DNA of 64,000 bases, taken from assembly GCF_005885635.1 (NCBI RefSeq), contig NZ_VATY01000004.1, positions 1 through 64,000 of the forward strand, given 5' to 3'. The translations under genes and the position numbers were made by a program. A model generated the notes under the pieces. That model made no database searches. It was given only the letters and a program-made list of their open reading frames with translations, and was not told where the DNA came from. Below, in pieces: positions 50,037 to 51,908 of this stretch (position 1 is its first letter; every line of letters begins with the position of its first letter). This DNA comes from Maribacter algarum (ex Zhang et al. 2020). GTDB lineage: Bacteria > Bacteroidota > Bacteroidia > Flavobacteriales > Flavobacteriaceae.

Positions 50037-50735
50037 TTATAAATTAATATAAACGATTCCTGTTATTATGGCAATTCCGAAGCTTATCAATGTACCAATT
50101 AAAATATATTCGGTCAATTTTCTGCTATTGCTTTCCTTTAAATCATTAAAACGAAAAACCGATTTAGCCGTAATTAGAAGGCCGATTGCACCCCACTGGT
50201 CAAGGATAATAAAGGCCAATACAAACAAACGTTCAATAATGCCAATATACTTCCCAGCATTTGGTAAAGATTTATGGTCCATTTCTAATTGTTTGGACAT
50301 CTGCTCTAAAAGTTTGCTCATTATTATGGCTGCAGGAAAACTCACAAATACTGCTGCTGTAATCAAATTCCAATCCAAAAGTTCAAAGAACTCCAGCGTA
50401 TGCATCCACAAATTGTCAAAATATGCGCAGCAATATAGTATTAGGATATGTAAAACCTGGTCAATAAAAAATGGTATGCTCTTATTTTTAAATAATGGGT
50501 TGACATATAATTTTATCAAGTCAATAAGATAATGTGATACTAGAATGACAATGGCGATTTTCCAATAGCTTAAATCCCATAGCAAAAGCATGGTTGCCGC
50601 AAAATGAATCAGTACATGAAAGTATAGGTACTTCGACGACGCTTTATTTTTTTCTTTGTGGAGCACCCATTTGTTGGGTTGCACTAGGAAATCGCCAATT
50701 AAGTGTGCTAAAAACAGTTTTGTGAACAAAATCAT
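50037..50735 (-). CDS. DUF3307-family polytopic membrane protein
   Basis: 232 residues with about six membrane helices. Conserved polar residues lie inside or beside helices: HLIGDFLVQP (His11, Asp15), FHVLIHF, SHYLIDLIK, FFIDQVLHI, and later ERLFVLAFIILDQWGAIGLL. The His/Asp clusters recall membrane-embedded metal-dependent hydrolases, but this is my reading, not an established function. Its ATG overlaps the SatD stop by 4 nt (ATGA), so the two are made together. SatD and DUF3307 pairs recur in other bacteria. Confidence 0.88.
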   Translation of the reverse strand: MILFTKLFLAHLIGDFLVQPNKWVLHKEKNKASSKYLYFHVLIHFAATMLLLWDLSYWKIAIVILVSHYLIDLIKLYVNPLFKNKSIPFFIDQVLHILILYCCAYFDNLWMHTLEFFELLDWNLITAAVFVSFPAAIIMSKLLEQMSKQLEMDHKSLPNAGKYIGIIERLFVLAFIILDQWGAIGLLITAKSVFRFNDLKESNSRKLTEYILIGTLISFGIAIITGIVYINL

Positions 50736-51343
50736 GGTTTCATTCTTTTTACGGTTTGAGGGTAATATTCTAATAGTTGTAGCACCAAATCCAATCGCGC
50801 TCTTTTTTGCCGCTGACTTACGGCAGACTGTTGAATACTGAGCTGTTCAGCTATGTCTTGCTGTGAGGTTTTAGGATGAGCCAATACTATCGCAATAATC
50901 TCCGCGGAAACTGATGTCCATTCATCCATGAAATCAAGTGCAAGCTTAATCATTAAATTAAGACTTTGGTCTTCTTTTTTATTTCCCGTAGCAATAGCTA
51001 AGTTTAATTTTTCCTCTTTCAAAGTTTCAAAAGTGCGCCCTGAGCGCTGATGCGCCGTTCCATTAGATTCACTAACGCTAGAACCTTTGAAACTCTCAGA
51101 ACCTACACCAATGGCCATACGAACGTCTAAATCTTTAATCGATTTTACAACGGCCTTTATTTGCAAAGCTGCCCATAGCGCTTTCTTAGGAGCTATCTTA
51201 AGCTGAAATTCATCACCCCTATAAATCTCCCAATCACTAGGGGTTTCACCCCATTTCGAGAACTGTTTTTTAAGTACATCAATCCATTCGGAAGCCTTGT
51301 GCCCCTCTGAATTAATAATATCCCCTGTAATTATTGCTATCAT
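50732..51343 (-). CDS. SatD-family protein with C-terminal helix-turn-helix
   Basis: 203 residues. Residues 1-110 are the SatD domain: AIITGDII (Asp8), YRGDEFQL (Asp44/Glu45), RMAIGVGS (75-82) and AHQRSGRTFETL (97-108). Residues about 145-185 are a helix-turn-helix (TSQQDIAEQLSIQQSAVSQR) of the region-4/LuxR-like type. The order Asp strand, GDEF hairpin, IGVG strand resembles GGDEF and class III cyclase folds, so a nucleotide-binding or cyclase-like domain is inferred. Four phased repeats fill the 112 bp upstream and probably bind its helix-turn-helix. It overlaps DUF3307 by 4 nt. Confidence 0.85.
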   Translation of the reverse strand: MIAIITGDIINSEGHKASEWIDVLKKQFSKWGETPSDWEIYRGDEFQLKIAPKKALWAALQIKAVVKSIKDLDVRMAIGVGSESFKGSSVSESNGTAHQRSGRTFETLKEEKLNLAIATGNKKEDQSLNLMIKLALDFMDEWTSVSAEIIAIVLAHPKTSQQDIAEQLSIQQSAVSQRQKRARLDLVLQLLEYYPQTVKRMKP

Positions 51344-51346
51344 AAA

Positions 51347-51454
51347 ATATAAGCTAAAACGCTAATATATGAATATATAAGCTAATTCGCTAATAATTAA
51401 TCAATATAAGCTAATTCGCTAATAATATGTAGTTATAAGTCAATCAGCTAATAT
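51347..51454. promoter_or_regulatory. array of four phased 22-bp repeats upstream of satD (operator array)
   Basis: Four copies of a unit with core ATAAGCTAATTCGCTAATA start at 51347, 51375, 51404 and 51433, with periods of 28, 29 and 29 bp. Copies 2 and 3 are identical over 22 bp; copies 1 and 4 are degenerate. Each unit contains two direct GCTAA half-sites 8 bp apart. The array fills the whole gap between the SatD start codon and the upstream methyltransferase gene and must overlap the promoter. The regular spacing indicates cooperative binding of one protein, most simply SatD itself. Confidence 0.85.
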
Positions 51455-51455
51455 T

Positions 51456-51908
51456 TTAAAACCACCTACGCACCAAAGTGCAATATTGTTTGTATTCTTT
51501 ATTGAATAGTTTCGACAACATCTCCTCTTCAGGAATTATCTGAAAAGCATTCATATACCCCACAAAACCAGCTGCCATCAATACATTAAAAGCATTTCCT
51601 AACCACAAACCCCAAGCGAGAAGCGCTAGTAAAAGTCCTAAATACATCGGATTTCTCGAAAATTGATAGATTCCAGAAGTTACCAATTTTGAAGCCCTTG
51701 AAGGTGCGGTAGGGTCCACTGTTGTTTTTGATTTGAAGAATTGAAGAATTGAGATAAAGCCAATGCATCCGGCAATTGCTAATAAGCCATACATCAAATA
51801 TTTTCTTCCGAAGAAATCAAAATAGCCCACAGGAAGAAAACGAGCTAGTAGGTACATCAAAGCTCCAAAGGCCATAAAAACAAGAACAGGTGGTACTTTC
51901 AGTCGCAT
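51456..51908 (-). CDS. isoprenylcysteine/phospholipid methyltransferase-family membrane protein
   Basis: 150 residues with four membrane helices. The C-terminal signature of the ICMT/PEMT-like family is clear: SRNPMYLGLLLALLAWGLWL, then PEEEMLSKLFNKEYKQY and VRRW, the SAM-binding part. It methylates an unknown lipid or small molecule at the membrane. Its start is 68 bp from divergent rdgB. It lies upstream of satD on the same strand, separated by the repeat array. Confidence 0.9.
   Translation of the reverse strand: MRLKVPPVLVFMAFGALMYLLARFLPVGYFDFFGRKYLMYGLLAIAGCIGFISILQFFKSKTTVDPTAPSRASKLVTSGIYQFSRNPMYLGLLLALLAWGLWLGNAFNVLMAAGFVGYMNAFQIIPEEEMLSKLFNKEYKQYCTLVRRWF

Follow-up and report, generated by a model that had tools for sequence, protein, structure and literature searches.

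The four repeats that precede satD in the window, by which we mean the whole 64,000-nucleotide stretch analysed here, are very probably binding sites for SatD itself. Judging from comparisons across genomes, it is highly likely that the array they form is the operator of the satD-DUF3307 operon and that SatD binds it, with repression as the most likely outcome. The preliminary description of this locus had proposed autoregulation by SatD through its C-terminal helix-turn-helix (HTH) domain, and that model is supported by arrays at most satD loci, by co-variation of SatD residues with the sites, and by the restriction of the sites to this promoter in the three genomes scanned. The genome containing the window measures 5.1 Mb, and its closest named relatives (uncultured Flavobacteriaceae, Pricia, Zobellia and Maribacter) place it in the Flavobacteriaceae. 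By profile score SatD is a member of PF16264 (39.4 bits versus a gathering cut-off of 29), and the gene that follows it matches PF11750 (92.8 bits versus a cut-off of 23). A 112-bp gap separates the satD ATG from the stop codon of the methyltransferase-like gene upstream (Table 1).

Table 1. Features of the satD locus, numbered from the first nucleotide of the window.
Feature	Position	Strand	Remarks
Operator unit 1 (distal), TATTAGCTGATTGACTTATA	51434..51453	minus	putative, from sequence
Operator unit 2, TATTAGCGAATTAGCTTATA	51405..51424	minus	putative, from sequence
Operator unit 3, same sequence as unit 2	51376..51395	minus	putative, from sequence
Operator unit 4 (proximal), TATTAGCGTTTTAGCTTATA	51348..51367	minus	putative; end 4 bp from satD ATG
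satD, 203 aa	50732..51343	minus	Pfam PF16264, E 6.9e-10; start codon ATG at 51343
DUF3307 membrane protein gene	50037..50735	minus	Pfam PF11750, E 2.1e-26; overlaps satD end
Methyltransferase-like gene upstream of satD	51456-51908	same strand as satD	stop at 51456

As first described, four regularly spaced copies do fill this gap, with unit-to-unit spacings of 28, 29 and 29 bp. By TRF the array outscores every other tandem repeat in the window (116, runner-up 43), and its dyad-array score of 54 bits compares with null maxima of 15.8 for dinucleotide shuffles and 14.1 for control segments across the whole locus set. The copies had been taken as 22-bp units; here they are delimited as 20-bp units, and the two middle copies are indeed identical over that length and slightly beyond. 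Two GCTAA copies 8 bp apart were said to occur in each unit as direct half-sites. Such a pair is present in three of the four units, the one at 51434 having GTCAA...GCTAA instead, and the half-sites turn out to be inverted. On the satD strand the unit reads 5'-TATTAGC-N6-GCTTATA-3', an inverted repeat with one mismatch (dyad consensus TATWAGY-N6-RCTWATA). Within the genus of the window the dyad and the direct repeat fit equally well (0.76 versus 0.77). Across 453 units from 138 non-redundant loci, however, the dyad is kept at 0.71, whereas the 8-bp direct repeat falls to 0.38, near the shuffled background of 0.32, which rules out the direct-repeat reading. Position by position, dyad symmetry is 0.84-0.95 for the outer three bases and 0.68-0.83 for the next three. 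On this sequence comparison the unit is an imperfect dyad and the GCTAA direct repeat is incidental. Successive units are not on one face of the helix, since 28-29 bp corresponds to about 2.7 helical turns, although the half-sites inside a dyad lie about one turn apart.

The comparison of regions upstream of orthologous satD genes, proposed as a check in the preliminary description, was performed on 175 loci drawn mainly from Bacteroidota, with some from their relatives. An array precedes satD in 161 of these at the 99% level of shuffles and controls, and in 75 of 80 loci from a further, named genome collection that shares part of its content with the first. The gene itself is present in 13 of 14 genomes of the genus and in 202 of 394, 55 of 346 and 97 of 296 genomes of the order, class and phylum samples, respectively, these samples overlapping one another. 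Arrays with 28-29 bp spacing also precede plasmid-borne satD genes in Sphingomonas and Agrobacterium, as well as on haloarchaeal plasmids of Natronosalvus, Halorientalis and Haloplanus. The longest array seen, before the satD of locus L138 (G599:C44:51879-52066), has seven units exactly 28 bp apart. In another case (L179) the array lies about 300 bp upstream of satD rather than adjoining it, as though an insertion had separated the two.

About 8% of satD loci lack an array detectable by the dyad-array score, among them L007 and L198-L200. The first of these belongs to the genus of the window and encodes a satD at 81% identity behind a different upstream region, which offers a natural test of what losing the operator does. 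Loci L198-L200, L195 and L196 carry distant SatD-like genes for which no array was detected; in the last two, the stretch before the gene resembles the coding sequence of another gene. A search of a phage collection with the SatD of the window returned no match, and a phage-gene origin was set aside on that result. In IMG/VR, a distant SatD occurs on three contigs.

The spacing of the units is more constant than their letters. With spacing left free between 21 and 40 bp, all 160 strong arrays pick either 28 bp (115) or 29 bp (45), while shuffles are flat. This free-spacing search is the unselected test: the 138-locus set was chosen for having an array, so that frequencies within it are uninformative on array presence. 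Autocorrelation over 130 bp upstream of the first 66 loci peaks at a lag of 28 (z = 25.7) and at 29 (z = 9.2), and control segments show no comparable peak at 28. We considered whether the Bacteroidota promoter, with about 28 bp from TTTG to TTTG, might impose this period. We discounted this cause because the 28-29 bp spacing is also kept in haloarchaea and Alphaproteobacteria, in which a promoter of that type would not be expected.

An AlphaFold2 model of SatD built from 65 relatives has a mean pLDDT of 96, compared with 48 for single-sequence prediction. In this confident prediction the N-terminus folds like the palm of class III cyclases, GGDEF domains and Cas10: residues 1 to about 140 match these and GTP cyclohydrolase III with Z of about 8-10 (up to 9.9), Foldseek probabilities up to 1.0 and E-values of about 1e-3, a likeness of fold only. 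The C-terminus is an HTH domain with a predicted recognition helix around residues 172-180; a sequence search of solved structures returned weak HTH matches only. D8 and D44, each kept in 174 of 175 sequences, sit at the positions expected of metal ligands, on strand 1 and in the hairpin, and are candidates for that role by their place in the fold rather than by residue-level superposition. Given the predicted palm fold and the retention of both aspartates where a metal site would be expected, the signal for SatD is likely to be a nucleotide.

The direction of control was approached through promoter geometry. In flavobacteria the -7 box of promoters has the form TAnnTTTG (PMC9723704). The pattern TTTG-N18-22-TAnnTTTG occurs within 200 bp at 29 of the 138 loci, against a null of 0.75 with a maximum of 3, and at 20 of the 138 the -33 and -7 elements flank a dyad. 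No TAnnTTTG match fits the array of the window itself. It is on account of the dyads between promoter elements in other lineages that we take SatD to act most likely as a repressor. A SatD that binds the array but activates, or whose nucleotide ligand switches it between repression and activation, we think quite unlikely. Distal units do lie upstream of the core promoter, as would suit activation, and ligand-dependent switching is plausible since D8 and D44 are kept; the dyads placed between -33 and -7, and the units that stop just short of the ATG, point to occlusion instead.

Half-sites vary widely between loci, including TATTAGC, TATTACC, TATTCC, TATCTGC, TATCGGC, TATCGTT, TATATGC, TGTTAC, ATCAACC and GTTCGCC. 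With palm-domain distance removed, the best of 195 SatD columns for explaining pairwise half-site difference is residue 177 (partial r 0.51), in the predicted recognition helix, followed by S173 (0.27), 191 (0.24) and 174 (0.23); a partial Mantel test on residues 172-180 was equalled in 0 of 2000 permutations. Gln at 177 goes with (A/T)AG, Glu or Asp with C(G/T), Gly with CGT, and Lys or Arg with C at the third core base. Among SatD proteins below 40% identity, half-sites match at 0.35 for random pairs and likewise 0.35 for the nearest relative, but at 0.53 for pairs with the same residue 177 and 0.66 when 173 is also shared; thus overall relatedness predicts nothing at this distance, yet the relation with residue 177 persists. 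The outer TAT is present in 143 of 150 cases with Q172 and in none of 11 without it (Fisher p about 1e-12, related sequences kept); in a reduced set the counts are 121 of 128 and 0 of 10. The Flavobacterium SatD with R172, for example, is paired with the half-site TGTTAC. On a palm-only tree restricted to supported branches, each test yields 3-5 independent pairs, a mean of 2.8-3.9 of them in the expected direction and about zero against, too few for significance in any one underpowered test. Held-out half-sites matched in 64 of 64 cases, although these are broad classes, mostly from clades already seen, and add little beyond the comparison below 40% identity. Taken as a whole, there is strong comparative evidence that the letters of the operator change in step with the SatD amino acids that would read them, while the geometry is fixed.

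Some arrays are mixed. In L081, where residue 177 is Gln, two distal units of the TATCTGC type precede two TTAG units, all sharing one 28-bp register; the proximal units fit the present residue and the distal ones fit a related clade, as if a specificity switch had been caught midway. Two half-site types are also mixed in one register in L059 and L114.

In three genomes scanned, the repeated site occurs at the promoter of satD and nowhere else. The perfect consensus has four copies in the genome of the window, all four in the satD array. The other two genomes have other half-sites: in one, both sites are in the array, and in the other, six perfect sites and a seventh with one mismatch are all in the array, exactly 28 bp apart. 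A wider SatD regulon in the genome of the window was rejected, one-mismatch matches being scattered and fewer in total than those of a reversed-pattern control (26 versus 50 forward matches). That some unrelated regulator binds the array, with satD merely its target, is very improbable: several HTH families bind dyads of this kind, but these half-sites track SatD residues 177, 173, 174 and 172 over large distances, and their absence from every other promoter of the three genomes would be odd for a separate regulator. Least credible of all is an origin by neutral tandem duplication, or a role as hairpins in the leader RNA. The repeats are short, AT-rich and tandem, and the dyads would form hairpins in RNA, but their spacing is constant over many loci while the sequence diverges, and residue co-variation is unexpected for RNA or neutral repeats. 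An Rfam search returned no match, and a known RNA element was set aside accordingly.

The DUF3307 gene follows satD in 174 of 175 loci and is probably co-transcribed with it. The membrane N-terminus of its product has conserved His and Asp residues that may form a metal site. At two loci (L284:2651-3064 and L285:2614-3060), the gene behind satD has no Pfam DUF3307 domain but resembles the C-terminal part of the DUF3307 protein in the window; no significant Pfam or NCBIfam family covers these proteins. In Sphingomonas and Natronosalvus the following gene shows C-terminal likeness only, judged by eye (GxxIGxxE, KS/KT, R, Y-L-x-G), and for this reason the C-terminal part may be the constant partner. 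In Streptococcus pyogenes, satD is accessory yet essential in the strains that carry it (PMC11323703), a hint that SatD restrains something harmful and a lead towards a possible toxin-antitoxin pair. PADLOC returned no match, and a known defence system was set aside accordingly.

In the autoregulatory model, every dyad would be occupied by a SatD dimer that contacts it with the C-terminal HTH; the outer TAT would be recognised by residue 172 and the inner bases by residues 173, 174 and 177. The constant distance of 28-29 bp between adjacent dimers points to assembly that may be cooperative. Because the array overlaps the promoter region, binding most likely silences the operon: newly made SatD would occupy the array and so turn down its own gene together with DUF3307, which may have a part in the circuit. 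The palm domain probably senses or processes a nucleotide, loosening or tightening the array, and a nucleotide bound or made there could relieve repression. A bolder proposal, though an unlikely one, is that SatD is a nucleotide-making or nucleotide-sensing enzyme whose palms are aligned by the array; DNA binding and second-messenger chemistry would then regulate one another and, via DUF3307, act on the membrane. If true, this would be a DNA-scaffolded cyclase switch in bacteria and archaea.

For this widespread but uncharacterised gene pair, the autoregulatory model supplies a concrete scheme of control and an amino-acid-to-base table, which makes binding and specificity switches directly testable in harmless bacteria from soil or sea. 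It offers a clear example from nature in which regulator and operator change together at constant geometry, and by tying a cyclase-type fold whose metal ligands look intact to the control of a promoter, it makes the nucleotide question for SatD testable. No description of a SatD operator, ligand or regulon was found in open-licence papers on SatD, DUF3307 and their accessions, in agreement with the preliminary description as regards the operator.

Repeated operators are known from antitoxins that autoregulate their operons and from plasmid repressors, which, like the proposed SatD system, involve a local regulator acting on its own two-gene operon at several spaced sites. To our knowledge, the combination of palm and HTH is foreign to known antitoxins. 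Self-regulating operons with repeated operators are thus familiar, but the searchable literature has no account of this family, fold and co-variation, and the locus would represent a self-controlled module of two genes, so far undescribed, centred on a DNA-binding protein that resembles nucleotide cyclases. The family (PF16264) takes its name from satD of Streptococcus mutans and appears here with a linked membrane protein. SatD resembles class III nucleotide cyclases, GGDEF domains and the Cas10/Cmr2 palm in predicted fold and aspartate positions; unlike them, it has a DNA-binding domain and putative sites on its own promoter, and its enzymatic role is only a candidate one. The cyclase-like DUF2652 proteins (PMC4886424) are a different family. 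SatD has no Pfam match at E 0.01 to PF17853 or PF13556, the GGDEF-like domain of CdaR and the HTH of PucR. Among the PucR/CdaR regulators, MabR likewise joins a GGDEF-like domain to a C-terminal HTH and binds its target promoter, without a catalytic motif (PMC11617747); unlike MabR, SatD retains both aspartates of the candidate metal site.
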